From Gammaproteobacteria bacterium 53_120_T64 (GTDB lineage: Bacteria; Pseudomonadota; Gammaproteobacteria; Pseudomonadales; Porticoccaceae), in NCBI GenBank assembly GCA_002162815.1, contig MAAT01000037.1, forward strand, positions 1 through 56,292: a stretch of DNA of 56,292 nt, written 5' to 3'. Made by a program: the position numbers and the translations under genes. The notes under the pieces are model-generated. The model made no database searches. It had not been told where the DNA came from and was given only the letters and a program-made list of their open reading frames with translations. Below are positions 19,089-47,523 of the stretch, one piece after another (within the stretch, counting starts at the first letter, position 1; every line of letters starts with the position of its first letter).

Positions 19089-19104
19089 TGGCACAGTCCC
19101 TGCT
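19089..19104 (+). promoter_or_regulatory. Sigma-54 promoter of sypABCDE
   Basis: TGGCAC, five bases, CTGCT. Ten of eleven bases match the consensus TGGCAC-N5-TTGCW with the invariant GG at -24 and GC at -12 correctly spaced. It is 60 bases ahead of the sypA ATG and fits the sigma-54 promoter known ahead of sypA in Vibrio fischeri. Confidence 0.85.
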
Positions 19105-19164
19105 ATCTCCACTGTAAGAGAGATGGAAAGCCAATTGAAACCAACGACATTACGGAGATTTACT

Positions 19165-19515
19165 ATGAGACTAGAACATGTCAACACCGATGCCGGTGAA
19201 CTGGTTGTCACCTTCTTTGGTGAACTCGATGCCCTCGGCTGTACACATATACGCCCCGAACTCGAGGCCATTGTCGCCTCCAAAGACTCACAACGGGTAA
19301 CACTAAACCTCCGCGAGGTGAGTTTTATCGATTCCTCGGGTATCGGGGCCATTGTCTATTTATACAAGCGCTTAAAGAGCCAAGGTCGAATACTCGATAT
19401 CAGCGGAGCCCGAGGTCAAGCCCTCGAACTTATAGAATTACTCCGAATCGACACCGTAATCACCCTAAAGTCGAACGCCGCCCGCCTTAAAAACACCGGA
19501 GCAAGCCATGTTTAG
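19165..19515 (+). CDS. sypA: STAS-domain anti-sigma factor antagonist, SypA-type
   Basis: 116 residues. The ATG at 19165 is chosen because GGAG lies seven bases upstream and the longer frame would include the sigma-54 promoter. The protein is a single STAS domain: beta strand LVVTFFGELDALG, then VTLNLREVSFIDSSGIGAIVYLYK, with the phosphorylatable serine pair at 57-58 in D-S-S-G, as in SpoIIAA and in V. fischeri SypA. In that system SypE phosphorylates and dephosphorylates SypA, and unphosphorylated SypA promotes biofilm formation. Here sypE is three genes downstream. Its stop overlaps the start of the next gene by eight bases. Confidence 0.85.
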   Translation: MRLEHVNTDAGELVVTFFGELDALGCTHIRPELEAIVASKDSQRVTLNLREVSFIDSSGIGAIVYLYKRLKSQGRILDISGARGQALELIELLRIDTVITLKSNAARLKNTGASHV

Positions 19516-20356
19516 GCTCTACGCCCTTACTCTGTATCTGTGCCTCAGTGGTTGTACGCACTGGCCTCAGGGGGGGCACGGCGGTATGGCCGAGCGCGAA
19601 CGGGGCAGACACGCGCCGCTACTCGCAGATCAGCCGCTGGGGCCAAGGCAGAGCCTGCGCATCGACCTTGACCTGGCTGGACGCCACCTCGATATCCTTG
19701 TGCTCAGGGGCGCTAGGACTTGCTTCCCCGCCAGCACCCTGCTGGCTCGACAATTGGAACAACGAGCTGCACGGGAACTGGAGGGCGATCTGGTGTTCGA
19801 TGCCGCTCTCGACCTATTAGAGCTACGCCATGATCTAAGTGCCATTGAAAACAAACTAACCAGCATCGATGGCGCGACCTGCCGCCCACAAACGGCAACA
19901 GCGAGTACCAGGGCCCAGCTCGATATACGAGAGAGTAAGGCCATACTCGCCCGACAACAGCGTCAAAACCTAGCCACTAGTAAGCCCCTGCTCGCGCTAA
20001 ACCACGACAATCAATTTGCCTTTAACTCCAGCCAGCTCAACCCAAAATACCAGCAACATCTGGCAGGCCTCGTGCTCTGGCTCACCAAGCAGCCCCAGTA
20101 TCAATTGTTCATTACCGGCCACAGTGATGTGCTCGGTAGCGAATCTTACAACCAGGCGCTGTCAACAGCCCGGGCGCAGGCCGTTGCCGACTATTTAGTC
20201 AGCTTGGGTCTGAGCAATAGCCACTTAAAGGTCTGGGGTGTTGCCGCTGCACAACCCTTGTTTGCGGGTCGGGCGCCAGCGATTCGCCTGGTCAATCGTC
20301 GTGTCAGTATCGAACTGACCTTTGAACCCAAACGCCTACCCGGCGGAGGTAAGTAG
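19508..20356 (+). CDS. sypB: OmpA-family lipoprotein, SypB-type
   Basis: 282 residues. An N-terminal signal peptide ends in a lipobox LSGC (Cys16), so it is a lipoprotein. Residues about 40-160 are of unknown fold. From about 165 an OmpA-like peptidoglycan-binding domain follows: FAFNSSQLNP, ITGHSDVLGS, and NQALSTARAQAV (the N..LS..RA..V diaminopimelate-binding motif), ending in NRRVSIELTF. It probably ties the export apparatus to the cell wall. Overlaps sypA by eight bases and precedes sypC by two. Confidence 0.82.
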   Translation: MFRLYALTLYLCLSGCTHWPQGGHGGMAERERGRHAPLLADQPLGPRQSLRIDLDLAGRHLDILVLRGARTCFPASTLLARQLEQRAARELEGDLVFDAALDLLELRHDLSAIENKLTSIDGATCRPQTATASTRAQLDIRESKAILARQQRQNLATSKPLLALNHDNQFAFNSSQLNPKYQQHLAGLVLWLTKQPQYQLFITGHSDVLGSESYNQALSTARAQAVADYLVSLGLSNSHLKVWGVAAAQPLFAGRAPAIRLVNRRVSIELTFEPKRLPGGGK

Positions 20357-20358
20357 TA

Positions 20359-22473
20359 ATGAACGGTCTAGGCGCTCGCCCTCTATTCATGATCACGGCC
20401 CTGCTGCTGGCGCTACTCCAGCCAGTGCAACTTCAGGCGGAGCCCTACCGCGTACAGGTCGGCGACCTGATAAAAATCGACCTGCCCGGTGAATCAAGCT
20501 TGGAGGAGGCTTTTCTCGTCAATCGCCAGGGACGCATCCTGCTACCCGAAGTCGGTTTGGTCGCCGTTGCCGACAGTCTTGAGTCAGAATTAAAAAACCT
20601 ATTGAGCAGCCAGCTTGGTGAGGTCTTTCTCGACCTGAGTCTTCTACAGGTCTATATCGCCCAGCGACAACTGCTCATCAGTGTCTACGGCTATGTCAAA
20701 CAGCCCGGTGAATTCACCCTGCCCGCCAATGGCACCGTGCAAATGGCTCTTCATGCGGCAGGGGGACTGCGCACGGGGGCTCAACTCAATCGCATCCAGC
20801 TGCTCCGCGCCGGTGTGCGCCAGGTATTTAACTACAAGCAATACTTAGACAGCGGTGACCTAGCCAATCTACCGCAGCTGAAATCCCTCGACAGCCTCTT
20901 CATTCCCTCCTCACCGATGACCGGTAATATTGAAGTCGACTTCGACCCCACCAAGGCAGCCGATGCCGGTGATGCCGCCGAGGATCGCCGCGCCATCAAA
21001 ATCTTTGGTGAGGTCAACAACCCCGGCAGCTATTCCTATCGCGCCTCGGCCAGCCTGATTGACTTATTAATGCGCGCCGGCGGGGTAACGCGCTATGCCG
21101 GTATCGAGCAAATCCGGCTGATTTCTCAAGGTGAACCGAAGCTGTTCAACCTCAAACACTACCTCGACCAAGGTGACGGTCGCCTACTACCCCCAGTGGA
21201 GGCCGGGGCCACTATTTTTGTGCCCCATAAGGAAGAACAGGTGAAAACCGGCGGCAATATTATCTATGTGATGGGGGAAGTGGCGAAACCCGGCGCCTAC
21301 GAGGGCCAAAAGGGGGCAACCTTTATGGACATCCTCTCCAACGCAGGCGGCCCCACCCGCTTTGCCGAATCCCGACAAATTCGTATTCTGAGAGCCAATG
21401 GCGAGATTGTGCGCTTTGATTTAGCCGGTTACACCGAGGGCACCGTCAAGGCCTCGCCCCCGAACATACAAGCGGGCGATGCCATCTTTGTCCCGGAAAA
21501 AACCGATATGAATGAAAAATCCTGGCTAAAAGTGGCCCCCGATCGCGCGGTGCGCGTCATCGGCGAGGTGCTGCGCCCCGGTCGTATCGAGTGGTCCGAT
21601 GAAATGACCCTGCTCGATCTCCTCGCTCATGTCGGCGGGCCTAGCTCAACAGCAGACACCAGCAATATCGACATTATTGTTATCGACCCCCAGGGCCGTA
21701 CTCGCAATCGCCAATTCAACCTCGACGCCTTCATAAGCGGCGGCCACGGCGACCACCTACTACCACAAATTCGCGCCGGTGCCACCGTGCGCATTCACGA
21801 GCTACCTCGAGACCCCGCCAACAATAAAAGCCAATGGGTGCGTCAGGCCTCGGAAAAATCCATCTACGTGTTCGGCCAAGTTGGCGCCCCCGGACGCTAT
21901 ATGTTTACCGACACCATGCATTTTCTCGATATTTTGGCCGCAGCCGATGGCCCCACGGGCAATGCCGACCTACATAACGTACGCATTAGTCATCGTGGTG
22001 AAAAGCCGGCACGTATCAGTCGCTTAAACTTGGCCCTCTATTTTGAAACCGGTGATGAAGAATTACTGCCGGAGGTGCGCACCGGCGACACGATTTTTAT
22101 TCCCGAAAAGGACCGTATCTGGCTCGAGCAATCCAAGGAGACTACGGTGCGCGTTATCGGCGCCGTCAACAAACCTGGCCGCTATCGCTTTAATGACAAC
22201 ATGACCCTGCTCGACCTCCTCGCAGAGGCCGGCGGCCCCAGTTCGGACGCCTATATCCAAAAGATAACGGTCATTAATTTGTCCTGCTGTCAAAACCAGG
22301 CCCGTAGTTTTGACCTCGCCGACTTCAGCCGCAACGCTAGGATTGCCAACATTCCCGTACTGCGCGCCGGCGACACGATATTTATTCCCAATAAAAAAGA
22401 CAGCACCATGGGCAAAATACGCACCGTTATCAAAGACATCTTCCAAATTTCAGCACTTGCATTGCTACTCTAG
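20359..22473 (+). CDS. sypC: Wza-like polysaccharide export protein with six SLBB repeats, SypC-type
   Basis: 704 residues. A signal peptide ends near LQAEP; there is no lipobox cysteine, unlike Wza itself. Residues about 25-110 are the Poly_export domain (YRVQVGDLIKIDLPG). Then come six SLBB repeats, each with G.V..PG.Y.....T..D.L..AGG, starting near residues 112, 213, 310, 395, 498 and 590. Each is linked by a short D/E-rich strand that ends in 'GDTIFIP' or similar. The C-terminus is a hydrophobic helix-like stretch. It probably forms the periplasmic and outer-membrane channel. GGAGG lies upstream of the ATG. Confidence 0.85.
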   Translation: MNGLGARPLFMITALLLALLQPVQLQAEPYRVQVGDLIKIDLPGESSLEEAFLVNRQGRILLPEVGLVAVADSLESELKNLLSSQLGEVFLDLSLLQVYIAQRQLLISVYGYVKQPGEFTLPANGTVQMALHAAGGLRTGAQLNRIQLLRAGVRQVFNYKQYLDSGDLANLPQLKSLDSLFIPSSPMTGNIEVDFDPTKAADAGDAAEDRRAIKIFGEVNNPGSYSYRASASLIDLLMRAGGVTRYAGIEQIRLISQGEPKLFNLKHYLDQGDGRLLPPVEAGATIFVPHKEEQVKTGGNIIYVMGEVAKPGAYEGQKGATFMDILSNAGGPTRFAESRQIRILRANGEIVRFDLAGYTEGTVKASPPNIQAGDAIFVPEKTDMNEKSWLKVAPDRAVRVIGEVLRPGRIEWSDEMTLLDLLAHVGGPSSTADTSNIDIIVIDPQGRTRNRQFNLDAFISGGHGDHLLPQIRAGATVRIHELPRDPANNKSQWVRQASEKSIYVFGQVGAPGRYMFTDTMHFLDILAAADGPTGNADLHNVRISHRGEKPARISRLNLALYFETGDEELLPEVRTGDTIFIPEKDRIWLEQSKETTVRVIGAVNKPGRYRFNDNMTLLDLLAEAGGPSSDAYIQKITVINLSCCQNQARSFDLADFSRNARIANIPVLRAGDTIFIPNKKDSTMGKIRTVIKDIFQISALALLL

Positions 22474-22483
22474 GTAAAAAATC

Positions 22484-23212
22484 ATGCACTTCAATCCCCA
22501 GCATATGGAAATTGAGCAAATATACAGCCGCTTGCTGTCCTGTGGCCAACGCGCACTGTCGATTTGCGCGGCCAACCCTGGTGAAGGCGTGACCTCTGTG
22601 GCCCTGGCGTTGGCGCAACGCAATCTACTGGCCGGAAAAAGTACCTTACTGGTGGACTTCAACTGTTACCGGCCGACGCTGAAACCGCTTTTAAGCTTGG
22701 GAGGCAACAGCGCGAAGCACCCCGAAGAGATGCTCTTCAGTGCGGCGGCAGAGCCACAACTACTGGGCAGTGCCGAGGGGGAGTTGGCCATTACCGGTAT
22801 ACCCTGCCCCCAGCGTCGCGAATTTATCATGACATTGCGCAAACCCGGCATGCTGGAACAGTGCATTGAGCAGTGGCTGCAAAATTATGACAGCATTTTA
22901 TTCGACACCTCGGCTCTCAACCGCAGCAATGGCAACAACATCCCCCCCGAACGGGTCGCGGCTGCCTGCGATGGCGCCGTACTGGTTGTACTCGCTGGAA
23001 GTACCACGGAGGCCATGGCCGCCAGCGCCATCACCAGGCTGCAAGACGGAGGGGCGCAATTGCTGGCCTGTATTTACAACGATCGCGACAACCCCTCCCT
23101 AAAAAACGAATTACTGCGTGAATTAAATCGACTCGAACCTCGCTTCAAGGGCATTGTTCGGTACCTTGGCGCATGGCTGCGCAACAATCGTCTACTGGCC
23201 ATGTCAATTTGA
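22484..23212 (+). CDS. sypD: CpsD/CapB-like ParA-type ATPase, SypD-type
   Basis: 242 residues. It resembles the cytoplasmic half of Wzc/CpsD bacterial tyrosine kinases: a P-loop region AANPGEGVTSVALALAQ, a Walker A' LLVDFNCYRPTL and a Walker B DSILFDTSAL. The P-loop has valine where the lysine of GEGKT/S belongs, and there is no C-terminal tyrosine cluster (only Tyr227 near the end). It may therefore regulate chain length or assembly without classic kinase action. No Wzz domain is fused; that role is played by the later sypO gene. Ten bases after sypC. Confidence 0.75.
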   Translation: MHFNPQHMEIEQIYSRLLSCGQRALSICAANPGEGVTSVALALAQRNLLAGKSTLLVDFNCYRPTLKPLLSLGGNSAKHPEEMLFSAAAEPQLLGSAEGELAITGIPCPQRREFIMTLRKPGMLEQCIEQWLQNYDSILFDTSALNRSNGNNIPPERVAAACDGAVLVVLAGSTTEAMAASAITRLQDGGAQLLACIYNDRDNPSLKNELLRELNRLEPRFKGIVRYLGAWLRNNRLLAMSI

Positions 23213-23252: not shown

Positions 23253-24857
23253 ATGGAAAAGTTACTCGTCACACTCAACGAACCCGTTACCCTGAATGGC
23301 ACCCGCGAGCTACGCCACCAGCTCGAACAGTTAATAAGCGACAGTATTGAGGAGCAAGTCCTCGCTCGACGCATCTTACTGTGCCTATCGGAAGTCTTGA
23401 ATAACCTGGTACTGCACGCAGGGCCGCAAACCCGTGACAAGCGTGAACGTGCAGCGCAGACCATGACGCTACGTTTTGCAGAGCTGCAAAACGGCTGGCG
23501 CTTAGAGGTTATTGATGACGGCGATCCCTGGGACCCGACCCTCTATCAGGCACCCGTATCTGATCAGGACCCCCGTTTGCGAAGTGTCGGGCGAGGTATT
23601 GAATTACTGCACAGCCAATGTGACCAGCTACAGTATTGGCCCGGAGATGATGGCGCGCATAATCGCTTGCAACTCATCTGGGGGGGGGACACAGCATCCA
23701 GGGCGTCCATCCTTATTGTCGATGACGACCCCACCCTACTGCGCCTTTATGCCGCTTACCTGGCGAAAAAATACAAAGTCGGCGTCGCCACCAGTGCCGA
23801 AGAGGCTATCGAGAAACTAAAGTGTAAAAAGGTCGACCTCATCATTTCTGACATCAACATGCCACAAATGAGCGGTCTCGGTCTCTGTAAACAATTACAG
23901 CTAAATCAACACACCGAAACCCTGCCCTTTATTTTTCTCAGTGCCCATGACAACTCTCACTTACAGCAACGCGCCAACGGTTTAGGGGTCGATGATTATC
24001 TGCGTAAGCCCGTCGACAAGCAGCGCTTAACCTGTAGCATTGAACGCGTTCTATCCCGCTCAAAAAAAATTCGTCGACAACTGTCCAAGAATTTAAACAA
24101 AAACATTACCAACTCACTGCCGATTCGCCTGCCAAAGCTCGTCCATAATTGGCAACTAGCAATGGCACAACTTAACGGTGGAACGGGCGGCGGTGACCTC
24201 TTACTCCACAAGGTTGGCGAGAGCCATTTACGACTGTTATTAGCCGACATTATGGGGCATGACGACAGCGCCAAGTTTTTTGCCCATGCCTGTGGTGCCT
24301 ACCTTCACGGCCTACTTCAAGCGCAAGAGGACAATACCAGTGCCGCACCACTGCTCGAAAAACTGTCAAACTTTGCCTTACAAGACCAGCTCTTATCGAA
24401 GATTACTCTAACCTGCTGTTCTGCCCTACTCCTGCCGGAAGGGCAAATTATGCTCGCGACGGCAGGTCACCCACCACCCCTGCTGATTAATGCCAAGGGG
24501 GTGACACCGATAGCCAGCAGCGGCATGCTACCTGGCTTGGTCAAAGACACGGAGTATCAAGATCGCCACCTCTGTTTACGCGCAGGTGAACGCCTGGCGC
24601 TGTACACCGATGGCCTGTTTGATTCCAGCAGCGACGCACTGGTGCGCGCAAAGAACGAGGAGGCCATTAACGCCACTCTAGCCGCAACACTTAACCAACC
24701 TCTGGACGTGGCATTAGAAAAAGTGATGGCAACATTCCAACAAGTGACTGGCACCACCATCAAAGATGACGTCCTATTGCTACTACTCGAGCGATCCTCG
24801 CAAGCCTCCGAGCCAGGCCCCGCAGCAGAAGATAAATCGCCATTAAACCTCCCCTAG
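23253..24857 (+). CDS. sypE: RsbW-like kinase / receiver / PP2C phosphatase protein, SypE-type
   Basis: 534 residues from the ATG at 23253, which has GGCGGA six bases upstream; the longer frame overlaps sypD. Domains: an N-terminal GHKL ATPase of the anti-sigma (RsbW) type (residues 1-140; N-box LCLSEVLNNLVLHAG, G1 box DDGDPWDP), a receiver (about 150-265; VDDDP and phospho-acceptor Asp200 in SDINMP, Lys in RKPVDK), and a SpoIIE/PP2C phosphatase (about 300-520; LLLADIMGHDDSAKF, TAGHPPPLL, LYTDGLFDSSSD). This exact three-part layout is that of V. fischeri SypE, which sets the phosphorylation state of SypA. It ends four bases before the opposed VanZ-like gene ends. Confidence 0.88.
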   Translation: MEKLLVTLNEPVTLNGTRELRHQLEQLISDSIEEQVLARRILLCLSEVLNNLVLHAGPQTRDKRERAAQTMTLRFAELQNGWRLEVIDDGDPWDPTLYQAPVSDQDPRLRSVGRGIELLHSQCDQLQYWPGDDGAHNRLQLIWGGDTASRASILIVDDDPTLLRLYAAYLAKKYKVGVATSAEEAIEKLKCKKVDLIISDINMPQMSGLGLCKQLQLNQHTETLPFIFLSAHDNSHLQQRANGLGVDDYLRKPVDKQRLTCSIERVLSRSKKIRRQLSKNLNKNITNSLPIRLPKLVHNWQLAMAQLNGGTGGGDLLLHKVGESHLRLLLADIMGHDDSAKFFAHACGAYLHGLLQAQEDNTSAAPLLEKLSNFALQDQLLSKITLTCCSALLLPEGQIMLATAGHPPPLLINAKGVTPIASSGMLPGLVKDTEYQDRHLCLRAGERLALYTDGLFDSSSDALVRAKNEEAINATLAATLNQPLDVALEKVMATFQQVTGTTIKDDVLLLLLERSSQASEPGPAAEDKSPLNLP

Positions 24858-24871
24858 TGCACTAGAGGAGG
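24848..24871. terminator. Palindrome holding both stop codons of convergent genes
   Basis: A 24-base near-perfect palindrome with one mismatched pair and centre TAGTGCACTA. The TAG stop of sypE (24855-24857) and the TAG stop of the opposed VanZ-like gene (24862-24864) both lie within it. It can form a stem on either transcript but lacks a T run, so it may stop or stabilise transcripts rather than act as a classic terminator. Confidence 0.45.
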
Positions 24872-25884
24872 CGAATGCTATCAATATACAAGCGCACAGG
24901 AACCGTCGGCTGATGGGTAAATAAACTCAGTGCTTGTATCAAACGCATATCCATATTGCGTTGCTGGGGTGCATTTTCGATGACCTGAAGCGGTATATTG
25001 ATGAAATTCCAGCCTGGCACAATAACAAGCGGGGTATTAAATTTATCATTAAAGTGAAAACCATTGCGTTGATAGTCCCGGTCAAAGACTTCCAGTTCAA
25101 AAGGTGTCGTCTGCTTGCTGGCGCTGTACACAGCGAGATGGAGGAATTGCAGGCTTGACCAATCGCCAACGAGGTGGTGGAGACTTACGCTCGGGTATTC
25201 CCCATTAAGAAATTGAACGTCTAGGGTATAACCACCCGAGCGGGGAAACGGTTGTGAACGATGCGCCACAACATTGGCAAACGTCCAGCGCTGTAATTGT
25301 ATCGATGTCTCAAAGTTAGCCAGGACGGGAAAATCACGTCTCATCGCCCACTCATCCAAGAGCCGAAGCTCTACATCCCGCAAACCCAAACCAAGCATAA
25401 GCACAATACCAAACCGTATTGTCAATCGCCCCCGCCCTGCGACCCTTGCCTTCTGCAATGCCAGTACCAGCAAGCCCAAATTAGCGCCAATGACATCGTT
25501 GAAAATATCAGCGACGGAAAAACTTCGCCCTAAGTGTAATTGCAAGTATTCAATTCCGGCCCCCAAGCCTAGGGCCGCGATATTACTCAATAACAGCCTA
25601 TAGCTAAGGGTATGGGCGGCCATGCTGAGACAAGAAAAATAGCCGTAACTGAGAAGACCAAAAAGGAGTAGATGCCCCGCATTCCAAAGGTCTCTCAGCA
25701 GAGGAGATCTCAGGCTGACACCTGCACCGAGCCCTACTATCATCAGCAAGATCAAGGTGATGATAAGCAGTGAGCCTATGACTAACTTTAGTCTCAACAT
25801 GGAAGTACTCGCTGAACTAACCAGTGATATGGACTTGGAGGAAATCTTTTTATAACAAAATTTAAACTTATAGAAACAAGCCAT
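24862..25884 (-). CDS. VanZ-like family membrane protein
   Basis: 340 residues from the first ATG; an ATG at 25800 (312 residues, starting MLRLKLVIG) is as likely since neither has a good ribosome-binding site. Hydrophobic segments lie near residues 30-55, 65-85, 95-115 and 125-165. The middle shows the VanZ-like pattern: LLLFGLLSYGYFS, then GAGIEYLQLHLGRSFSVADIFNDVIGANLGLL, which matches E.LQ....R..S..D...N..GA..G. The last 160 residues are a beta-rich periplasmic-like extension of unknown function. It is antisense to the syp genes and convergent with sypE, and is not part of the V. fischeri syp set. Confidence 0.75.
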   Translation of the reverse strand: MACFYKFKFCYKKISSKSISLVSSASTSMLRLKLVIGSLLIITLILLMIVGLGAGVSLRSPLLRDLWNAGHLLLFGLLSYGYFSCLSMAAHTLSYRLLLSNIAALGLGAGIEYLQLHLGRSFSVADIFNDVIGANLGLLVLALQKARVAGRGRLTIRFGIVLMLGLGLRDVELRLLDEWAMRRDFPVLANFETSIQLQRWTFANVVAHRSQPFPRSGGYTLDVQFLNGEYPSVSLHHLVGDWSSLQFLHLAVYSASKQTTPFELEVFDRDYQRNGFHFNDKFNTPLVIVPGWNFINIPLQVIENAPQQRNMDMRLIQALSLFTHQPTVPVRLYIDSIRLL

Positions 25885-26045: not shown

Positions 26046-26447
26046 ATGCCCTTTGGAAAAGACAAGAAATGCGTTCTAGTCATAGATGATGATGCCAGCT
26101 TATTGCGCCAGATCCGCTACCGGCTTGAGCACCACGAGGGCTTGGCAGTGACAGAGGCGATGGACGGAGAGCAGGGCCTGGAGCTAGCGAAGTGTGATAA
26201 CCCCGACATTATCATCCTAGATTGGATGCTACCCGGCATGCAAGGTCTCGAAGTACTCGAATACCTAAGAGCCATGAGTGTTACACAAAAAACACCGGTA
26301 TTAATGCTGACCGGTAAAAACAAGGTTGGCAATATTGAAGATGCTTTTCAGCTCGGCGCGCAAGCCTATTTAACTAAACCCTTTTCTCTGCAAAAGCTCG
26401 GCGAAAAAGTTCAGAGTTTACTCAGTAATAGCCTCGGTAACGGCTAA
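26046..26447 (+). CDS. Stand-alone response regulator receiver
   Basis: 133 residues, one receiver domain only. Acidic pocket in VIDDD, phospho-acceptor Asp59 in ILDWMLPGMQG, Thr in LMLTGKN and Lys in YLTKPFSLQKL. No output domain. It ends five bases before the hybrid kinase and is in the same unit, so it is likely a partner or phosphate sink of that kinase. It is an addition to the syp gene order known from V. fischeri. Confidence 0.88.
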   Translation: MPFGKDKKCVLVIDDDASLLRQIRYRLEHHEGLAVTEAMDGEQGLELAKCDNPDIIILDWMLPGMQGLEVLEYLRAMSVTQKTPVLMLTGKNKVGNIEDAFQLGAQAYLTKPFSLQKLGEKVQSLLSNSLGNG

Positions 26448-32066: not shown

Positions 32067-32116
32067 CATTACTTGGCTCAAGCAGCCGGCATGCCTAGTC
32101 ATACCGAAATAAAACA

Positions 32117-33221: not shown

Positions 33222-33345
33222 ATTTGCATGATGCGAGGCAATCTAAGAAATCTCGGGGTTTAAAGGCATTTACTGCCATATGAATAGACCTGATAGCAGC
33301 ACGACAAACCTTTAGATACCCCTGTTTCCCTGAATTAATCTCCGC

Positions 33346-38941: not shown

Positions 38942-38957
38942 TGGCTCAAACCCTGCA
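38942..38957 (+). promoter_or_regulatory. Sigma-54 promoter of glmS-sypMNO
   Basis: TGGCTC, five bases, CTGCA. Spacing is exact and GG and GC are present; nine of eleven match TGGCAC-N5-TTGCW. It is 38 bases ahead of the glmS ATG. In V. fischeri the corresponding promoter stands directly before sypM. Confidence 0.75.
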
Positions 38958-38995: not shown

Positions 38996-40825
38996 ATGTG
39001 TGGAATATTTGCAGCTATTAATAAACAATCGGTAACCCGCCATCTGATTAAGGGTTTACAAAATTTATCCTATCGGGGTTATGATTCCGCTGGCATTGCC
39101 ATTGTTGACCACAGTGGCCTACAACGCCGACGTGCCGAAGGTAAAATAGAGCGTTTAATTCACTGTCTGGAAACAAAGCCTCTCGAAGGCCGTGTTGGCA
39201 TCGCCCACACACGCTGGGCAACCCACGGTGCTGCTAGCCAACGCAATGCCCACCCCCATATGACCTCGCGAGTAGCGGTGGCACACAATGGCATTATCGA
39301 GAACAGTCATCAGCTACGCACTGAACTGGAATCTCGGGGCTTTCATTTCGAGAGTGATACCGATAGCGAAACGATTCCCCAGCTGATCACCTTTTACCTC
39401 AATCTCGGTTTGGAGCACGATCAAGCCCTGCGCTCGGCCCTGGAGCGGCTCGAGGGCAGTTTTGCCATCGCCGCTGTATTTGATGATCTTCCCGATTGCA
39501 TCTTTGCCGCTCGCCGCGGTAGCCCCTTGGCCCTAGGCTATGCCAATGGTGGGCACTTTCTAGCATCCGACATCAATGCGCTCAAATCCGTCGCCGACCA
39601 AGCCTGCCACCTCGAGGATGGCGACCTGGCCCGCATCAGCCTGCTGCACATCGCCATTACCGATCAGCACAACAAGCGCGTAGATCGGCCCCGACAAGTG
39701 ATCTGTGAGCAGCAAAGTAATAGTGATCGTGATAAGCAGGGCTTTCGCCACTACATGCTCAAAGAAATACACCAACAAGCCGGCGTTATTAAGCGAACCC
39801 TTGGCAACTACTTACCCGGTGCCGACAATACTATCGACTTCCCCCTGCTGCCCTTTAATTTAGCCGAGTTACAACGCCTCAATATTGTCGGCTGCGGCAC
39901 TTCCCACTACGCAGCAATGATCGCCAAATATTGGCTGGAGGGTTTTGCCGGTTTAGCGGTCGAGGTCGATATTGCCTCAGAGTACCGCTACCGAGACGGC
40001 CCCGTTTGTGCCAGTACGCCCAGCCTCTTTATCTCTCAATCGGGGGAAACGGCCGATACCTTGGCGGCTCTGCGCCATGCCAAACAATGCGCACAACACT
40101 GTATATCCATCGTCAATGTCGTGGACAGTAGCATCGCCCGCGAGAGCCACGTCATCCTGCCAACCATGGCTGGCGCCGAAATTGGCGTCGCCTCGACGAA
40201 GGCCTTCACCGCCCAGTTAACCGTACTGTTTCTGTTCAGCTTAAAGGCCGCCGTCAGTAGAGGTCGAATTAATCAAACCGAAAAAAAGCGACTGCAGAGT
40301 CAACTCACCTTGCTGCCAAGCATCATTGATAACTTCCTTAACAGCGAACACCGTATTTTAGCGATTGCTCAAAAACTGCAGAATATCGAACATATGCTCT
40401 ACCTGGGCAGAGGTATCGCCCTGCCTCTGGCCCTTGAGGGCGCATTAAAGCTGAAGGAAATCACCTATATTCACGCTGAGGCCTACCCTGCCGGGGAGCT
40501 AAAACACGGCCCCATCGCCCTGGTTGACGCCTCAATGCCGGTCCTCGTGGTTGCGCCTCCAGGCCGGCTCTTTGCGAAATCCCTATCGAACCTGCGAGAG
40601 GTGAGTTCGCGGGGTGCCAAGGTCATCCTAGTCAGTGATCAACAGGGTATCGATGAGGCGCAAGATTATATCGATGCCGCCATTGCCATACCCACCATTG
40701 AACCCCTGCTGCAACCCTTTATTTATACCCTGGCGCTACAACTACTGGCCTATCACTGTGCGGTATTGAAGGGAACCGATATTGACCAGCCGCGCAATTT
40801 AGCCAAATCGGTCACCGTTGAATAA
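38996..40825 (+). CDS. glmS: Glutamine-fructose-6-phosphate aminotransferase
   Basis: 609 residues, full length. The amidotransferase domain starts MCGIF with catalytic Cys2 and has LSYRGYDSAGIA. Two SIS domains follow (VGCGTSHYAAMIAKYWLE and SQSGETADTLAAL; GRGIALPLALEGALKLKEITYIHAEAYPAGELKHGP), with the C-terminal signature DIDQPRNLAKSVTVE. It makes glucosamine-6-phosphate, the start of UDP-GlcNAc. In this locus it leads the sypMNO unit and is presumably an extra copy that raises precursor supply on induction. The main copy, usually by glmU, is not in the window. Confidence 0.95.
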   Translation: MCGIFAAINKQSVTRHLIKGLQNLSYRGYDSAGIAIVDHSGLQRRRAEGKIERLIHCLETKPLEGRVGIAHTRWATHGAASQRNAHPHMTSRVAVAHNGIIENSHQLRTELESRGFHFESDTDSETIPQLITFYLNLGLEHDQALRSALERLEGSFAIAAVFDDLPDCIFAARRGSPLALGYANGGHFLASDINALKSVADQACHLEDGDLARISLLHIAITDQHNKRVDRPRQVICEQQSNSDRDKQGFRHYMLKEIHQQAGVIKRTLGNYLPGADNTIDFPLLPFNLAELQRLNIVGCGTSHYAAMIAKYWLEGFAGLAVEVDIASEYRYRDGPVCASTPSLFISQSGETADTLAALRHAKQCAQHCISIVNVVDSSIARESHVILPTMAGAEIGVASTKAFTAQLTVLFLFSLKAAVSRGRINQTEKKRLQSQLTLLPSIIDNFLNSEHRILAIAQKLQNIEHMLYLGRGIALPLALEGALKLKEITYIHAEAYPAGELKHGPIALVDASMPVLVVAPPGRLFAKSLSNLREVSSRGAKVILVSDQQGIDEAQDYIDAAIAIPTIEPLLQPFIYTLALQLLAYHCAVLKGTDIDQPRNLAKSVTVE

Positions 40826-40852: not shown

Positions 40853-41644
40853 ATGAACAGCCTACAAGACATCAAGCAGCACATTAAAACCAGCCCCCAA
40901 CCCTGGGCACAATTCACCTTCCGCCAACTCAAGGCACTGCGCCATATGGCGCTACCAGCACCCCGCTGGTTGTTCTGCCCCCTCTACAGTGTCCACTGCG
41001 GTTTGCGCGATAGCCTCACCAGCCTCACTCGGTTTTTCTGGTGGACGCCTCTTTTTAAGGGGCGTCTCAACCGTACTGGGAACCAGCTCTACCTCTACGG
41101 CGGCCTGCCCTTTGTCAGCGGATCACTGCAAATTTCAATCGGTGATAATTGTCGAATCAGTGGCCACACCACCTTCAGTGGCCGTACCTGTAGTCGACAA
41201 CAACCCCGATTACTGGTGGGTAATAACGTCGATATCGGCTGGATGAGCACTATCGCCGTGGGCCAGCGAATCAAGATTGGCAATAATGTCCGCATTGCCG
41301 GGCGCGCCCTACTCGCCGGTTATCCCGGCCACCCGCTCAACGCAAAAGACAGAGCGGCCGGCTTGCCCGAACTCGATTCGCAAGTCGGCGACATCGTGCT
41401 TGAAGATGACGTCTGGTTAGCCACCGGGGTAACCGTAACCGCAGGTGTGCACATTGGCTGCGGTACCATTGTCGCCGCCGGCAGTGTGGTGACGAAAAAC
41501 CTACCCGCAGGTGTACTCGCTGGCGGGGTACCCGCCAAAGTCCTTGCGAAAATACCCGCTGCTGACAAGGCCAACGGTGAGCTGTCCGGCGCTACTCGCC
41601 GTCAGTCCACGACCTGTAATCTTACCCACAACGCGGCGCGGTGA
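40853..41644 (+). CDS. sypM: Left-handed beta-helix acyltransferase (WcaF-like), SypM-type
   Basis: 263 residues. The middle half (about 85-225) is made of hexapeptide repeats (I.IGDNCRISG, LVGNNVDIGWM, IGNNVRIAGRALLAG, LEDDVWLATGVTVTAGVHIGCGTIVAAGSVVT), ending with LPAGVLAGGVPAKVL, the C-terminal signature of the WcaF/NodL acetyltransferases. It probably O-acetylates the polysaccharide or its precursor. GGAG lies upstream of the ATG, 27 bases after glmS. Confidence 0.82.
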   Translation: MNSLQDIKQHIKTSPQPWAQFTFRQLKALRHMALPAPRWLFCPLYSVHCGLRDSLTSLTRFFWWTPLFKGRLNRTGNQLYLYGGLPFVSGSLQISIGDNCRISGHTTFSGRTCSRQQPRLLVGNNVDIGWMSTIAVGQRIKIGNNVRIAGRALLAGYPGHPLNAKDRAAGLPELDSQVGDIVLEDDVWLATGVTVTAGVHIGCGTIVAAGSVVTKNLPAGVLAGGVPAKVLAKIPAADKANGELSGATRRQSTTCNLTHNAAR

Positions 41645-41650: not shown

Positions 41651-42796
41651 ATGAAACCCCCTCTGATTGTCTTTGGCGAGGACTGGGGCGGCCTGCCCAG
41701 CAGCACTCAGCACTTGATTGAACATCTCGCCCAAGCGCGCAAAGTAATCTGGGTGAATTCCATCGGCCTGCGCCGCCCACGCCTCAATCGCCACGATATT
41801 TTACGTGCCTGGCATAAATTATGGCCGCGCAAAGCATCCTCGCCCCAGCAGCACCTCAAGTCATCACTACCGGCCAGTGACAATTTTTTCCTCGTCAATC
41901 CGCTAACGCTGCCCGCACCCCGCAGCCGTGTCGCCCGTTGGTTGGCGACACGGCTATTGCTCAAACAACTGCGGCCCCTGTTGCGCAGCCAGCAAATAAC
42001 AGCACCGCTGCTGTGGATCTCTCTACCAACGGCCGTCGATTTCATCGGCCACCTCGAGGAATCGGCGGTGATCTATTATTGCGGTGATGACTTCTCCGCC
42101 CTGGCCGGGGTCGATCACGATACCGTGGCCGCCCGTGAAGAGGCGCTCGTCGCCAGGGCCGATTTAATCCTCTGTGCCAGCCAAAGATTGGTGGCGAAGT
42201 TCCCCTGCGCGCCCACCCGCCTGCTCAATCATGGCGTAGATCTAGCACTGTTCGCCAAGCCCAGCCCCCGCGCCCTTGATCTACCCGACGATGGCCGCCC
42301 CATTGCCGGTTTCTATGGCAGTATTTCACATTGGCTCAACCTCGACTTACTCTGCACTGTCATCAAACAACTGCCCGAGTGGCATTTTATTTTCATCGGT
42401 AAAATAGTCGTCGATGTCAGCGCATTAGCTGGCCTCGACAACGTGCGATTTTTAGGCGAGCGGCCCCATCGGCAACTACCCAGTTACTGCCAGCACTGGA
42501 ATGCCAGCCTCCTGCCCTTTATTGACAACAGCCAAATTCGCGCCTGCAATCCGCTGAAACTGGTCGAGTACCTCGCCTGCGGGCGCCCCATTGTTACCAC
42601 CAACTTTCCCGCACTACAGGCCTACCGGGGGCTTGTGCAAATTGCCGATCAGGCGCCGGCCATGATCGAAGCACTGCAGGCCAGCCGCCAACTGCACGAC
42701 CTTGCTGGCTTTAGCCCAGCCACGCGCCAGACGGTCGCCGACAAAGACTGGGCCAGTCAGGCACAACTGACCGCGCAATGGCTCGATGCCCTATGA
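41651..42796 (+). CDS. sypN: Glycosyltransferase, SypN-type
   Basis: 381 residues. GT-B type; the C-terminal half has PIAGFYGSISHWLNLDLL and NPLKLVEYLACGRPIVTTNFPAL, the donor-binding region of GT1/GT4-like enzymes. The N-terminal half (VFGEDWGGLPSSTQHLIEHLAQ) is a variant acceptor domain. Six bases after sypM; its stop overlaps sypO by four bases. Confidence 0.75.
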   Translation: MKPPLIVFGEDWGGLPSSTQHLIEHLAQARKVIWVNSIGLRRPRLNRHDILRAWHKLWPRKASSPQQHLKSSLPASDNFFLVNPLTLPAPRSRVARWLATRLLLKQLRPLLRSQQITAPLLWISLPTAVDFIGHLEESAVIYYCGDDFSALAGVDHDTVAAREEALVARADLILCASQRLVAKFPCAPTRLLNHGVDLALFAKPSPRALDLPDDGRPIAGFYGSISHWLNLDLLCTVIKQLPEWHFIFIGKIVVDVSALAGLDNVRFLGERPHRQLPSYCQHWNASLLPFIDNSQIRACNPLKLVEYLACGRPIVTTNFPALQAYRGLVQIADQAPAMIEALQASRQLHDLAGFSPATRQTVADKDWASQAQLTAQWLDAL

Positions 42797-44211
42797 GTAT
42801 TCACTACCGTATTTTCATCATTCTGGTGGCCGCCTGGCGACGACGCTATGCTATCGCACTGCCCATCCTCCTCCTCCCCTTCATCGGTCTTGGCATCGGT
42901 AGCCTGAGTCCTCAGAACTACTCATCCCACACCAGTATGTTGATTCAGGAAACCGCCAAAATGAACCCGTTTTTGGAGGACCTCGCGGTCTCCGCCATGC
43001 TCAAAGAACGAATGAGCGCACTGCAAACCCTCCTGCACAGCCGCCATATTCTCGCCAGCGTCGCCTTAGAGCGAGGCTTACTCGATGCGAACAGCAGCCC
43101 CGCGGATCAAGACCGGGTGATTGGCGAACTCTCCTCGGCCATCTCTGTGCAAATGCTCGGCAAGGACCTTATCCGCATCGACTACACGGCCCGGCAACCG
43201 GAGGAGATCAAGGCCACACTCGAAGTCATCAGTCGCCAATTTGTTGAGCAGTTACTCGCCCCCGAGCGCTCATCGATGCATGCCTCCAGTCGTTTTTTAG
43301 CGCAACACCTCGAACAACGCCGCCAAGAACTGGATCTGTCCGAAGCGGCTCTAGCAGATTTTAAAAATCGCCACGCCATTGACCTCCCTGCGCTGCACCT
43401 GGGTAACATGACTCATCTGAGCTCACTAAAGCATCGTTTGGCGGAGCGTATGAGCGAATTGGCCGGCGCCACGCGACGCCTCGGAGGCCTCGACCAGCAA
43501 TTATCAAAAACCAACCCGGTACTAAGTCGTCTCGAAGAAAAGATTGTCCATATCGAGGGCAACCTGGTGTTACTGCGAGCCCGCTACACCGATCAACACA
43601 GTAAGATTCAGGGTGCCCTGCGCAATCTGCGCAGCCTGCAGACAGAGCGTTTGGATATTCTCCAGCAAAGCCAACCCAGCCTTAACGCCGAGCAACTCTG
43701 GGCAATCGCCAGTGGCACCTCACAGCGCGAGGGAGAACAAACCCTACTGGTTTCGCAGCTGGAAAACCTACAGCTCGTGCGCAGTAAGGTCGACGGTTTG
43801 AAGGAAGAACTGATCAGCCTCCAGGCAATGATTGCCAAAGGCGAAGTACAAGCGTCGAACTATGGTGCCAACGAAAATGAACTGTCACGACTGGAGAGGG
43901 ATATCAGTGTTAAGCGCGGGCTCTATGACGAGCTTCTGCAGCGCCATGAAAACGCTCGTATTACCCACTCACTGAGTATTTTTGAAGAAGACAAACGGAT
44001 TAAAATTATTGACCGTCCCTTTACGCCAACCAGCGATAATACCTTGCCCCTACCACTGTTTTTTTTCGGCGGCTTGATCGGCGGTATTATTTTTGGCGGC
44101 GGCTTAGCCCTCTTGCTGGAGGTCGGCGATACCAGCCTGCGTCGCGTCGACCGCCTGAGCGCCATTAGCGGCGTGCCCGTCTTAAGCCGCATTCCACCCT
44201 ACCCGCAATAA
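42793..44211 (+). CDS. sypO: Wzz-type chain length determinant, SypO-type
   Basis: 472 residues from the ATG at 42793, which overlaps the sypN stop as ATGA; the frame's first in-frame start, five codons earlier, is less likely. N-terminal membrane segment (ALPILLLPFIGLGIGSL), long coiled-coil periplasmic part with Q/E/L-rich heptads (about 160-390), a GNVR-like stretch with L.R....KRGLYDELLQRHENAR, and C-terminal membrane segment (PLPLFFFGGLIGGIIFGGG). It sets chain length by interaction with SypL. No kinase domain is attached. Confidence 0.85.
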   Translation: MSIHYRIFIILVAAWRRRYAIALPILLLPFIGLGIGSLSPQNYSSHTSMLIQETAKMNPFLEDLAVSAMLKERMSALQTLLHSRHILASVALERGLLDANSSPADQDRVIGELSSAISVQMLGKDLIRIDYTARQPEEIKATLEVISRQFVEQLLAPERSSMHASSRFLAQHLEQRRQELDLSEAALADFKNRHAIDLPALHLGNMTHLSSLKHRLAERMSELAGATRRLGGLDQQLSKTNPVLSRLEEKIVHIEGNLVLLRARYTDQHSKIQGALRNLRSLQTERLDILQQSQPSLNAEQLWAIASGTSQREGEQTLLVSQLENLQLVRSKVDGLKEELISLQAMIAKGEVQASNYGANENELSRLERDISVKRGLYDELLQRHENARITHSLSIFEEDKRIKIIDRPFTPTSDNTLPLPLFFFGGLIGGIIFGGGLALLLEVGDTSLRRVDRLSAISGVPVLSRIPPYPQ

Positions 44212-44474
44212 ACAACAACGCGGTACAGCGGCAGCGTCTCAAGCTTCAGTAATGACTTGCTACGCCTCCCTTCCGTAGCAGCCCTACAGCTCTCACACTG
44301 GCTAACAGCTCAAAGCCATTAGTACCTCGCCATTTTAGTAGCGCTCCATTATTGAAATACAAAAGCCTTTGCAAGCTCATACGCAATTTGCAGAGAACCC
44401 TGTAAATACAACCTATGGCATTCATTAAAACCACAACCTACTGTTTTTGAACACATTTTCACAAGCTCTAACAT
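44212..44474. other. Region ahead of the sypPQR promoter
   Basis: No gene. The stretch 44368-44397 contains TTTGCAAGC and GCAATTTGCAG, similar to the pair found ahead of the other sigma-54 promoters, about 78 bases ahead of the -24 box. Confidence 0.45.
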
Positions 44475-44490
44475 TGGCACAGCAAGTGCT
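44475..44490 (+). promoter_or_regulatory. Sigma-54 promoter of sypPQR
   Basis: TGGCAC, five bases, GTGCT. Ten of eleven bases match. It is 86 bases ahead of sypP. V. fischeri has a sigma-54 promoter ahead of sypP. Confidence 0.8.
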
Positions 44491-44576: not shown

Positions 44577-45674
44577 ATGTCTAGAGTCGTTCAAGTCGTT
44601 CAGCATCTTCGCCCCGGTGGTATCGAAACCATGGCCCTCGATCTCTGTAGTTTTACACAGGGTAAAAACAAACCATTGATAATCAGCCTGGAGGGCAGCT
44701 GCCGCGAAGCACTTCAGCACTGGCCCCGTCTCAAACGCTACGCCAGTCGCGTCATCTTTCTCAATAAGCAGCCCGGCATCAAACCTTTCCTGGTGCTGCG
44801 ATTGAGCCGTTTATTGCGGCGTATTGGTGCCGATGTTGTCCACACTCACCACCTTGGCCCTCTCTTGTATGCGGGCCTAGCCGCACGTCTCGCTGGCATC
44901 AAGCATCTGATCCACACCGAACACGATGCCTGGCACCTCAACGACCCGCGCCACTGTCGATTGCAAAAAACCATCATTCGACTCACCCAACCCTTGTTGG
45001 TCGCCGATGCGCACACCGTCGCCAGTGCCATGTGCCGTCAGTTGAATATTGACAAGGTGGAGGTCGTGACAAACGGTATCGATACCGAGTATTTCAAACC
45101 CGGCCAACAAAGCTTGGCCCGAAAAAGTTTAGCGCTACCTCAAAACGTCCCCTTAATTGGCTGCAGTGGTCGCTTAGAGGCGGTTAAAGGCCACCATTTT
45201 TTATTCGAGGCACTGCGCGATTTACCTCAAGATGTTCACCTCGCTCTCGCAGGAGAGGGTTCAATGAAGCAAGCATTAGAACGTCTCGCCGAGGAGCTGG
45301 GCCTTAGCCGGCGTATCCATTTTCTTGGCCGTGTCGATTATATGCCGCGCTTTTATCAGGCACTCGATGTCTTTTGCCTGCCCTCAATCAACGAGGGAAT
45401 GCCACTCTCTCCTTTAGAGGCCCAGGCCTGCAATGTCCCGACACTCGTCACCGACGTCGGTGCGGCTAGCGAGACCCTGTGCCCCGACACCGGTGTACTG
45501 ATACCCGCCAAGGACGTCGATGCCCTAAGCCTCAACCTGCTGCGAGTACTGAATGCTCAATTAAAAATGCACAGCGCTACTGCGCCACCGAGCCCGCGAA
45601 CCTTTGTCCAACAACATTGCGATGTTCGCCTAATGGCTCAAGCCTACAGCCAACTGCAGACAAGGGAGCTTTAA
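44577..45674 (+). CDS. sypP: GT4-family glycosyltransferase, SypP-type
   Basis: 365 residues. GT-B fold with acceptor half (HLRPGGIETMALDL, VHTHHLGPLLYAGLAARLAG) and donor half (CSGRLEAVKGHHFLFEAL, FLGRVDYMPRFYQALDVFCLPSINEGMPLSPLEAQACNVPTLVTDVG). GGAG lies upstream of the ATG. Sugar not predictable. Followed one base later by sypQ. Confidence 0.8.
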   Translation: MSRVVQVVQHLRPGGIETMALDLCSFTQGKNKPLIISLEGSCREALQHWPRLKRYASRVIFLNKQPGIKPFLVLRLSRLLRRIGADVVHTHHLGPLLYAGLAARLAGIKHLIHTEHDAWHLNDPRHCRLQKTIIRLTQPLLVADAHTVASAMCRQLNIDKVEVVTNGIDTEYFKPGQQSLARKSLALPQNVPLIGCSGRLEAVKGHHFLFEALRDLPQDVHLALAGEGSMKQALERLAEELGLSRRIHFLGRVDYMPRFYQALDVFCLPSINEGMPLSPLEAQACNVPTLVTDVGAASETLCPDTGVLIPAKDVDALSLNLLRVLNAQLKMHSATAPPSPRTFVQQHCDVRLMAQAYSQLQTREL

Positions 45675-45675
45675 A

Positions 45676-46860
45676 ATGTCAGCAACAACGACCATCGTCC
45701 TCACCCTACTTAGCGGCCTACTGGTGATTTATCACCACCTTGGCTACCCTCTGATACTGCGCTGGCTACAGCGCAAGCACGGCCACAATAATGATGGCCT
45801 GGCGAATAAACCGCCACTCGACACCGATGACTTGCCATCCATTAGTTTATTGATCCCGGCCTACAATGAAGCGCAATGGATAGCCGATAAAATTCACAAT
45901 TTAGCCATCCTTAATTACCCACAAGACCGGCTTAATATTATTATCGCCTGTGATGGCTGCAGTGATGACACCGTCGCCATTGCACGCCAAACCGCCTCGC
46001 AAATCGAGTGCCAGCATCTCAATATCGAGGTACGCAATTTCCCCGCTAACCGCGGTAAGGTCGCGGTGATCAATGAGGTGATCGGGGAGCTTACTGGTGA
46101 GCTGGTGGCCTTAAGTGATGTATCGGCGCTCATATCGATCGATGCTCTACTGCTTGCGGCCCATTATTTTAGAGACCCTAAAGTCGGTGTCTTATCACCC
46201 CATTATCAATTACTAAACCCAGGTTCTGCGGGTGAATTGAGTTACTGGAACTATCAAAGTCGCATGAAAGCCTCCGAAGCGGCCTTGGGCGCGACTCTCG
46301 GGGCTCATGGCGCCTTCTATGTCTTGCGTCGCCGCTTGTTTACGCCCCTGGCCGCGGACACCATTAATGACGATTTTATTCTCCCCATGAATATTGTCAT
46401 GCAGGGTTTTCGCGCTGAATATGCCGCTGACATTCACGCCCTGGAACTGGAGCAGGCCAATGACAACCTCGATTGGCAGCGCCGCCAACGCCTCGGCGCC
46501 GGTAATTGCCAGCAGCTTTTACGTCTAAAAAAACTCCTGCTACCCCGCTACCGGGGCGTTGCCTTCGCCTTTATTTCGGGTAAAGGGCTACGTGTATTGA
46601 TGCCTTTCTGCATGCTAATTTCACTGCTCGGCAGTATCTACCTGGCACAACAATACGTGTTGTTTATACCCATTGCCCTCGGCCAGGTCCTGCTCTACCA
46701 GCTGGCACTACTGCAGGTTGTGCTAAAACCAAAACGCCAGATACCCCTAATGGCATCACTCGCCTACCTCGTCAGAGGCCACTGTGCCAGTTTAATGGGG
46801 ACCCTGCGCTATATAGCGGGCCTTGAACGCGGCCGCTGGCAATCTGTAAAGCCTGATTAA
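45676..46860 (+). CDS. sypQ: GT2-family membrane glycosyltransferase, SypQ-type
   Basis: 394 residues. An N-terminal membrane segment, then a GT-A domain starting ISLLIPAYNEA, with ACDGCSDDT for nucleotide binding, LVALSDVSALI near the usual metal-binding aspartate, and GAHGAFYVLRRRLF. The QRRQRLGAGN motif near residue 270 resembles the Q..RW acceptor motif of processive and chitin/cellulose synthase-like GT2s. Three hydrophobic segments follow. Twelve bases after the end of this gene come the sypR ribosome-binding site and start. Confidence 0.8.
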   Translation: MSATTTIVLTLLSGLLVIYHHLGYPLILRWLQRKHGHNNDGLANKPPLDTDDLPSISLLIPAYNEAQWIADKIHNLAILNYPQDRLNIIIACDGCSDDTVAIARQTASQIECQHLNIEVRNFPANRGKVAVINEVIGELTGELVALSDVSALISIDALLLAAHYFRDPKVGVLSPHYQLLNPGSAGELSYWNYQSRMKASEAALGATLGAHGAFYVLRRRLFTPLAADTINDDFILPMNIVMQGFRAEYAADIHALELEQANDNLDWQRRQRLGAGNCQQLLRLKKLLLPRYRGVAFAFISGKGLRVLMPFCMLISLLGSIYLAQQYVLFIPIALGQVLLYQLALLQVVLKPKRQIPLMASLAYLVRGHCASLMGTLRYIAGLERGRWQSVKPD

Positions 46861-46881
46861 TCACCTAACGGAGTGAAGACA

Positions 46882-47523
46882 ATGCATACCCACTGCCATA
46901 TCAGCCCCACTACCGCCTATAGTAAACGCCTATTTGACCTGTTTATCGCCACCGTCGGCATCATCATTACCCTGCCACTTTGGCCCCTTATTGCCGTGGC
47001 GATCAAGTACAAGTCACCGGGTCCGATTTTTTTCACACAAGAGCGCAGCGGTATCAGTTTTGCCAATTTAGCACCGACCTTCAAGATGATTAAATTTCGC
47101 ACCATGATCGACAATGCTGAAAAAAACTCAGGCCCCGTTCTGGCCACCGCAGACGACCCTAGAATCACATCGGTGGGGCGCTTTTTACGAAAGACCCGCC
47201 TCGATGAATTACCGCAGTTTATCAATGTACTGAAGGGAGAAATGTCGGTGATTGGCCCCCGGCCGGAACGCCCCGCTTTTTATCAAAAACTGGAACGGGA
47301 GATCCCCTTTTTCAGCGAGCGAACCTATTGCGTTACACCGGGTATTACCGGGCTCTCCCAGGTCAACCAAGGCTATGACACCTGCCTTGAAGACGTACGC
47401 AATAAACTCGGTTTTGATATCAGTTATGGCCTAGCACTGAGCAATTTTTGGTCGTGGTTAAAAATGGACTGCATCATCATCCTGAGAACCCTATTAGTGA
47501 TGTTTACGGCGCGCGGGCAGTAA
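46882..47523 (+). CDS. sypR: Undecaprenyl-phosphate sugar phosphotransferase, SypR-type
   Basis: 213 residues from the ATG at 46882, which has GGAG eight bases upstream; a GTG three codons earlier is possible. One membrane segment (LFIATVGIIITLPLWPLIAVAI) and then the bacterial sugar transferase domain: GPIFFTQERSG, KFRTM, SVGRFLRKTRLDELPQFINVLKGEMSVIGPRPERPAF. It attaches the first sugar phosphate to undecaprenyl phosphate and so starts the repeat unit. Its size is that of the short, single-segment class without the large N-terminal membrane domain of WbaP/WcaJ. Confidence 0.88.
   Translation: MHTHCHISPTTAYSKRLFDLFIATVGIIITLPLWPLIAVAIKYKSPGPIFFTQERSGISFANLAPTFKMIKFRTMIDNAEKNSGPVLATADDPRITSVGRFLRKTRLDELPQFINVLKGEMSVIGPRPERPAFYQKLEREIPFFSERTYCVTPGITGLSQVNQGYDTCLEDVRNKLGFDISYGLALSNFWSWLKMDCIIILRTLLVMFTARGQ

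Follow-up and report, generated by a model that had tools for sequence, protein, structure and literature searches.

How the promoters of the syp biofilm genes of Vibrio fischeri are insulated from the quorum-sensing regulator LuxO is, according to the authors who examined it, still to be determined (eLife 2023, PMC10162802). The question returns with a syp-type symbiosis/biofilm polysaccharide locus in Gammaproteobacteria bacterium 53_120_T64, on a contig of 56,292 nucleotides (MAAT01000037.1 of assembly GCA_002162815.1) that we analyzed over its whole length and term the window. We are fairly confident, from sequence comparison, that this is a complete 18-gene syp-type locus with four accessory genes, likely devoted to making and exporting a biofilm polysaccharide and predicted to be activated by a SypF-SypG phosphorelay through sigma-54-like promoters, most of which carry LuxO-type elements. 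The regulatory DNA, which the initial annotation of the window overlooked, is the more informative part of the locus.

The initial annotation had described sypA to sypR as complete and in order, and the reading frames, domains and relatives all bear this out. The open reading frame (ORF) list and Pfam and NCBIfam scans place all 18 genes in intact order at 18988-47523, and tblastn with every window protein identified collinear matches to 18 of 18 Syp proteins in Aliivibrio S3MY1, at 37-65% identity. Four further genes lie within the locus, encoding a VanZ-like protein, a lone receiver (REC), an epimerase and GlmS; the same search found no counterpart of any of these in the S3MY1 syp locus. The initial annotation would have been contradicted by SypE, SypF or SypG proteins closer to unrelated regulators than to Vibrio Syp proteins. 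For SypG a reciprocal best match was found: the window protein matches Aliivibrio SypG at 563.5 bits, with a LuxO-like protein second at 511.8, and Aliivibrio SypG in turn matches window SypG at 561.9 bits, the next protein of the genome reaching 282.4. For SypF the comparison ran in one direction, in which the Aliivibrio syp SypF ranks first (452.8 versus 249.4 bits) with the sensor half left unaligned. A generic Wzx/Wzy-type capsule or exopolysaccharide cluster, resembling syp through convergent assembly of common parts, might be imagined from the presence of GT4, GT2, Wzx, Wzy, chain-length and sugar transferase proteins, which are common families, and from SypO and SypC, which match XrtA/PEP-CTERM models too. 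That explanation is extremely improbable when 18 genes, among them a kinase-receiver-phosphatase SypE, share an identical order at these identities and SypG is a reciprocal best match, and we rejected it on gene order and orthology.

The full promoter set of the V. fischeri syp genes lies before A, I, M and P, and sigma-54-like sites occupy the same places in the window, with glmS-M standing for M. In published accounts, PsypA and PsypP are named (PMC10162802), sypIJKL is one of the operons and sypM belongs to its neighbor (PMC4263508), and four syp operons are stated (PMC8941931). The best window sites within 250 bp before sypA, sypI, glmS and sypP, all on the plus strand, score 19.7 (19088-19104), 19.4 (33345-33361), 18.2 (38941-38957) and 19.7 (44474-44490), the first ranking fourth on the plus strand of the window. 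No random set of four positions, out of 2000, reached at least 18.2 throughout, and only 3 of 38 other gene starts (mfs, the epimerase and sypH) reached that score. All four sites are conserved in the genus-mate G003, those of sypA and sypP identically and that of glmS at a score of 17.0. We predict sigma-54-like promoters before A, I, glmS-M and P. The gene sypA (19165-19515, plus strand, STAS domain) most likely begins at 19165; the 175-codon ORF listed from 18988 is probably too long, because a GGAG ahead of 19165 is kept in G003, where the longer frame is interrupted by a stop. The locus start previously placed at 19089 coincides with the sigma-54-like site (19088) rather than with the gene.

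Sites resembling the LuxO-type element TTGCANNNTGCAA were found 74-121 bp upstream of the -24 element of each promoter. These are GTGCAGAATGCAA at 18981-18993 before sypA (107 bp from its -24 site), TTGCATGATGCGA at 33224-33236 before sypI and ATGCATTTTGCAA at 38867-38879 before glmS-sypM, each with 1 mismatch and the latter two conserved in G003, and a weak element, ACGCAATTTGCAG at 44381-44393, with 3 mismatches before sypP. At the same places G003 shows 2, 1, 1 and 2 mismatches for A, I, glmS and P. The whole window contains only 8 such sites at 1 mismatch, and a LuxO-type 15-mer with at most 2 mismatches precedes 3 of the 4 promoters, an arrangement seen in 0 of 2000 shuffles. An exact copy of the V. 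fischeri SypG-type element TTCTCANNNTGMDWN is absent from the window, the promoter gaps hold no copy at 1 mismatch, and the palindromic form of the element has at least 4 mismatches at all four window promoters. As a check of the method, the luxO-like genes of both Aliivibrio and Enterovibrio were found to have exact copies of the LuxO motif next to them; these genes were called by SypG similarity and motif sites, not by annotation. A SypG-controlled promoter before sypH was also considered, as a sigma-54-like site lies at 32116, but was rejected on its best upstream element, which has 4 mismatches.

Is this element peculiar to the window? The region upstream of sypA was read in 40 Vibrionaceae-group and 9 other loci, of which 39 and 7, respectively, have a sigma-54-like score of at least 17. 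The operator counts leave out L217 (16.9) as well as Glaciecola and a Plesiomonas plasmid, neither of which has a site at that score; Glaciecola and Plesiomonas had been excluded from the start from the set used for shuffle and coding controls. Calls of either type allowed at most 2 mismatches (of 12 for the SypG type). SypG-type elements precede sypA in 31 of 39 Vibrionaceae-group loci versus 0 of 7 others (Fisher p 1.2e-4). When the 13-mer was held to at most 1 mismatch, LuxO-type elements were found in 3 of 39 Vibrionaceae-group loci versus 5 of 7 others. Shuffles of the Vibrionaceae-group sequences gave SypG-type calls in 2.0% and LuxO-type calls in 3.5%, those of the others 0 and 1.7%, and coding stretches gave 1/780 and 14/780 for the Vibrionaceae group and 1/140 and 2/140 for the others. 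Upstream of sypI, scorable in 16 of 20 Vibrionaceae-group loci, 14 SypG-type and 0 LuxO-type elements were identified. Outside that group, LuxO-type elements with at most 2 mismatches also lie before I and M of 45_16_T64 and before glmS of Agaribacterium, and none was found at this threshold before P of 45_16_T64, Agaribacterium or G144.

The DNA-binding domain of SypG divides in a similar manner. Its helix-turn-helix (HTH) motif starts with Asn-Ile-Pro in the window, G003, Agaribacterium and G296, and Ile-Pro is thus found in the window and in 3 of 4 other non-Vibrio loci; both LuxO-like proteins (2 of 2) carry Asn-Ile-Pro as well. Among the best 120 relatives of the window SypG, its own entry included, Ile-Pro was recognized in 116 by pattern and in 2 by eye, the remaining two having Val-Pro and Val-Leu. 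Val-Leu or Val-Ile is found in 19 of 20 Vibrionaceae-group loci, and also in S3MY1 and Enterovibrio. The sole exception of the 20, L229, combines Ile-Pro with a LuxO-type site that matches perfectly, and lacks a SypG-type site. In V. cholerae LuxO, an alanine scan showed that DNA binding depends on Ile411, which corresponds to the Ile of this motif; Pro412 is not among the eleven residues listed there (PMC11407668). In the databases, several proteins related to window SypG carry the source label "repressor protein LuxO", which is possibly a misnomer.

A first quick tree of SypG left the position of LuxO undecided. In a tree built without the HTH motif, all Val-Leu/Ile proteins form one clade (support 95/87) with the LuxO-like pair outside it, consistent with one change. 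A starred clade of 13 proteins (97/95), with none of the Vibrionaceae loci among them, includes the window SypG. The likeness to LuxO control of qrr (PMC10162802) extends to the element, TTGCAWWWTGCAA, and to the Asn-Ile-Pro HTH, whereas the regulator here lies within the syp locus and is a better match to SypG than to a LuxO-like protein; on these two grounds we rejected the idea that it is itself LuxO. Nor did a search of the genome with Aliivibrio SypG reveal a second LuxO-like protein (next match 282 versus 562 bits). No Rfam family reached its gathering score in the window, although no search aimed at qrr was made.

How might such a system work, and which code came first? In V. fischeri, phosphate passes via the Hpt domain of SypF to SypG, which drives sigma-54 promoters (PMC10162802). 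By analogy, SypF would hand phosphate both to SypG, for transcription, and to SypE; phosphorylated SypE would shift from kinase to phosphatase and free SypA by taking off its phosphate. The lone receiver may be a third taker of SypF phosphate, and the extra GlmS and the epimerase may feed UDP-sugar precursors. SypG would bind TTTGCA-N3-TGCAAA, and the 46 scorable loci and the tree suggest that this LuxO-like code is the older. In one clade, which includes nearly all Vibrionaceae SypG proteins read, Ile-Pro at the motif start would have given way to Val-Leu, and the operators to TTCTCA-N3-TGAGAA. Our proposal is that SypG and LuxO share an ancestral element, kept here, and that in Vibrionaceae, with both regulators in one cell, the change from Asn-Ile-Pro to Asn-Val-Leu and of two bases per half-site (TTTGCA to TTCTCA) insulated the biofilm genes from quorum sensing, leaving a residual reading by SypG of LuxO sites at qrr1. 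We give this account about an even chance of being right. A swapped code of this kind, with the SypG motif and its operators changing together, would keep LuxO off the syp promoters and could explain the insulation.

A number of observations weigh against the proposal or the wider reading of the locus. LuxO-type elements at 2 mismatches precede sypA in 12 of 39 Vibrionaceae-group versus 5 of 7 other loci, a difference that is not significant (p 0.083), and 8 of the 39 score equally for both types through hybrid half-sites. The non-Vibrio locus of G144 has Asn-Val-Pro, the Val-Leu relative mentioned above is a database protein (P0234, placed within the Val-Leu/Ile clade), and L228 is a counter-example that combines Val-Leu with a perfect LuxO-type site. 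Long branches and a poorly resolved fork mark the root of the tree, on which the motif switch is a single event, so that co-occurrence with the operators is not independent proof. The syp contig of 45_16_T64 encodes two SypF-like proteins, of which the one beside SypE is the poorer match (481.1 versus 583.8 bits). The Fischeri-group reference throughout was Aliivibrio S3MY1, not ES114. Could the operator split then simply follow from phylogeny and the AT richness of intergenic sequence, the window SypG binding something else? The single event, the small number of non-Vibrio loci (7 of 9 scorable), the 3 mismatches at sypP and the non-significant LuxO-type contrast all lean that way. We nevertheless consider this doubtful: LuxO-type matches arise in only 1.7-3.5% of shuffles, the window sites keep a distance of 74-121 bp from the -24 element and are mostly conserved in G003, and a Vibrionaceae-group genome with an Ile-Pro protein, that of L229, has the LuxO-type site.

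The regulatory proteins themselves can be compared with those of V. fischeri, where SypE adds a phosphate to Ser56 of SypA and removes it again upon a signal (PMC4517449). Equivalents of Ser56, K67, R68, Q84 and R93 of V. fischeri SypA are present in the window, those of Ser56 and Lys67 in 9 of 9 aligned sequences. The Arg27 position is Thr in the window, and none of the 8 non-Aliivibrio sequences aligned, window and G003 included, has Arg there; in V. fischeri, exchanging Arg27 for Ala frees SypA from SypE. Because Arg27 is not kept, the SypA-SypE contact may differ from that in V. fischeri. SypE (23253-24857) combines an RsbW-like kinase, a receiver and a PP2C-type phosphatase (HATPase_c_2-REC-SpoIIE), a layout found in precomputed Pfam matches for 120 of 120 of the best relatives out of 463, the window protein included, and an alignment of 18 relatives revealed invariant residues. 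Among the best 60 of 251 matches to solved structures none covers all three domains; the receiver was matched, and one of these structures, 3eq2, spans the receiver and phosphatase parts.

SypF (26453-29410) is a hybrid kinase with the layout MASE3-PAS-HisKA-HATPase-REC-Hpt. Its first ~440 residues, the MASE3-PAS sensor, do not align with Aliivibrio SypF, and the input signal is for this reason probably different. At 28996-29054 its REC and Hpt domains are joined by a natural (Gly-Ser)n linker, encoded by 9.8 copies of a 6-bp repeat; G003 has no GSGS string at this place, and because of the repeat and this difference the linker length may vary by slippage. SypG (29428-30876) is a sigma-54 response regulator of the form REC-sigma54 AAA-HTH_8. 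SypD (22484-23212), a weakly BY-kinase-like relative of the polysaccharide tyrosine autokinases with no Pfam match, lacks the Walker-A lysine (GEGVTS and similar) in 9 of 9 loci first compared and in all readable further Vibrionaceae-group loci (19 of 20), and may be a pseudokinase.

The four extra genes had been described as inserted. Three of them, however, have counterparts at the corresponding position of further syp loci (the lone receiver in one, glmS in two and the epimerase in five). The VanZ-like membrane protein (24862-25884, minus strand; Pfam VanZ at 30.0 bits where the cut-off is 30.1, NCBIfam vanZ_1 at 21 where it is 20) and the lone receiver (26046-26447, plus strand) lie between E and F. 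The former has 6 matches, its own included, in 5.8 billion proteins, one of them in Gammaproteobacteria bacterium 54_18_T64, and no match on plasmids at 1e-5; alone of the four, it looks near-lineage-specific. A 56% relative of the lone receiver is found between E and F in 45_16_T64 only. The NAD-dependent sugar-nucleotide epimerase (30962-31930, minus strand, between G and H) resembles UDP-sugar 4-epimerases, falling under the cut-offs of the NCBIfam models shown. In Enterovibrio and in four more Vibrionaceae-group loci, relatives at 60-65% identity likewise lie after G and on the opposite strand; the four loci continue with H, and the Enterovibrio piece stops short of it. The glmS gene (38996-40825, plus strand), for glucosamine-6-phosphate synthase, is a second genomic copy, 47% identical to the other on contig C53. 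It precedes sypM in Agaribacterium as well (52% identity), and in G144 a fragment with 29 residues from the end of a glmS lies before sypN at the contig end. The lone receiver, epimerase and glmS are parts also seen in other syp loci and absent from the Aliivibrio locus examined, which changes the view of the locus.

The remaining genes, all on the plus strand like the other syp genes, are sypB (19508-20356; OmpA domain), sypC (20359-22473; a Wza-like export protein with Poly_export and SLBB domains, 65% identical to that of Aliivibrio), sypH (32166-33221) and sypI (33400-34710), both GT4 glycosyltransferases, sypJ (34707-35849; glycosyltransferase), sypK (35852-37282; Wzx-like flippase) and sypL (37286-38683; polymerase/ligase, Wzy_C). 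Downstream of glmS follow sypM (40853-41644; hexapeptide acetyltransferase), sypN (41651-42796; glycosyltransferase), sypO (42778-44211; chain-length protein), sypP (44577-45674; GT4), sypQ (45676-46860; GT2) and sypR (46873-47523; polyprenyl sugar-phosphate transferase). An integrase-core (rve) ORF lies at 55896-56255, at the right end of the contig.

From which lineage does the locus come? The closest named relative of SypE, at 82%, is annotated as a Porticoccaceae bacterium, a family that NCBI taxonomy places in Cellvibrionales. The genome is probably of Porticoccaceae, and the SypE relative and the SypG clade favor the earlier view that the host is not one of the Vibrionaceae. The accompanying suggestion, that this would be a syp locus outside its known family, was incomplete: syp/scv loci have been reported from 28 genera in 8 orders outside Vibrionaceae, including Cellvibrionales and two alphaproteobacterial genera (PMC8941931). 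Among 37 genomes of the genus and family, 2 encode a full-length SypE, as do 4 of the 369 genomes sampled from the class, both counts including the own genome. A SypC match at 1e-140 was found in the same 4 class genomes, in 1 of 54 genomes from the G402 family and, within the Vibrionaceae group, in 62 of 101 genomes, 47 of them scoring above 900 bits. A scan of genome contigs kept 80 loci, with 5 in syp loci, 1 a fragment and the rest matched mainly via the receiver domain.

In genus-mate G002, mfs (90%) and ybaK (87%), the genes on either side of the locus in the window, lie only ~410 bp apart; because these neighbors adjoin with no space for a syp locus, it was cleanly gained or lost at this site. 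Such presence and absence, and the frequency of SypC in the Vibrionaceae group set against the scarcity of SypC in the class sample and of SypE in the genus and family, would suit a recent horizontal copy from Vibrionaceae. This origin is very unlikely, as the window SypG groups in a clade without any of the Vibrionaceae loci, identity to Aliivibrio is only 37-65%, and the complete locus is present at the corresponding place in G003, at 72-91% identity. Base composition gave no signal of recent transfer either (GC content 52.0% in the locus versus 52.4% in the flanks). The tree test of transfer covers SypG, one of 18 proteins, and the locus may instead have been transferred from another lineage or lost in G002. 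Gene order is itself variable: in 45_16_T64, Agaribacterium and G144 (L114-L117, L121) P-Q-R is followed by A, a rearrangement relative to Aliivibrio and the window. Two plasmids of Plesiomonas shigelloides (NZ_CP027853.1 and NZ_CP062197.1, ~396 and 302 kb; L222 and L223) carry a syp-like locus with a SypE-like gene, in which a sugar transferase stands directly before the STAS gene. For NZ_CP027853.1, no sigma-54 regulator was found among the genes of the 42 kb examined (from an incomplete gene table) and no sigma-54 site before the STAS gene.

Compared with V. fischeri syp, then, the window shares the 18 genes and their order (as judged from Aliivibrio S3MY1), the SypA serine, the SypE layout and the positions of the sigma-54-like sites, and differs in the four extra genes, the MASE3-PAS sensor of SypF, the LuxO-type rather than TTCTCA-type elements and the Ile-Pro HTH of SypG. 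It resembles the scv/syp-like loci of aquatic bacteria, which are spread over many genera other than Vibrio and have gained and lost genes; Porticoccaceae, operators and the SypG motif are not treated in the main text sections of that report covered here (PMC8941931). No title or abstract in a literature search, which left subscription papers outside its scope, describes the operator split or the motif change. The presence of syp beyond Vibrionaceae is already known, and the new part is the regulatory variant. If our proposal is true, a small motif change and a two-base operator swap would provide a testable answer to the question of how syp promoters are insulated from LuxO, and natural SypG proteins of both kinds exist for comparison.

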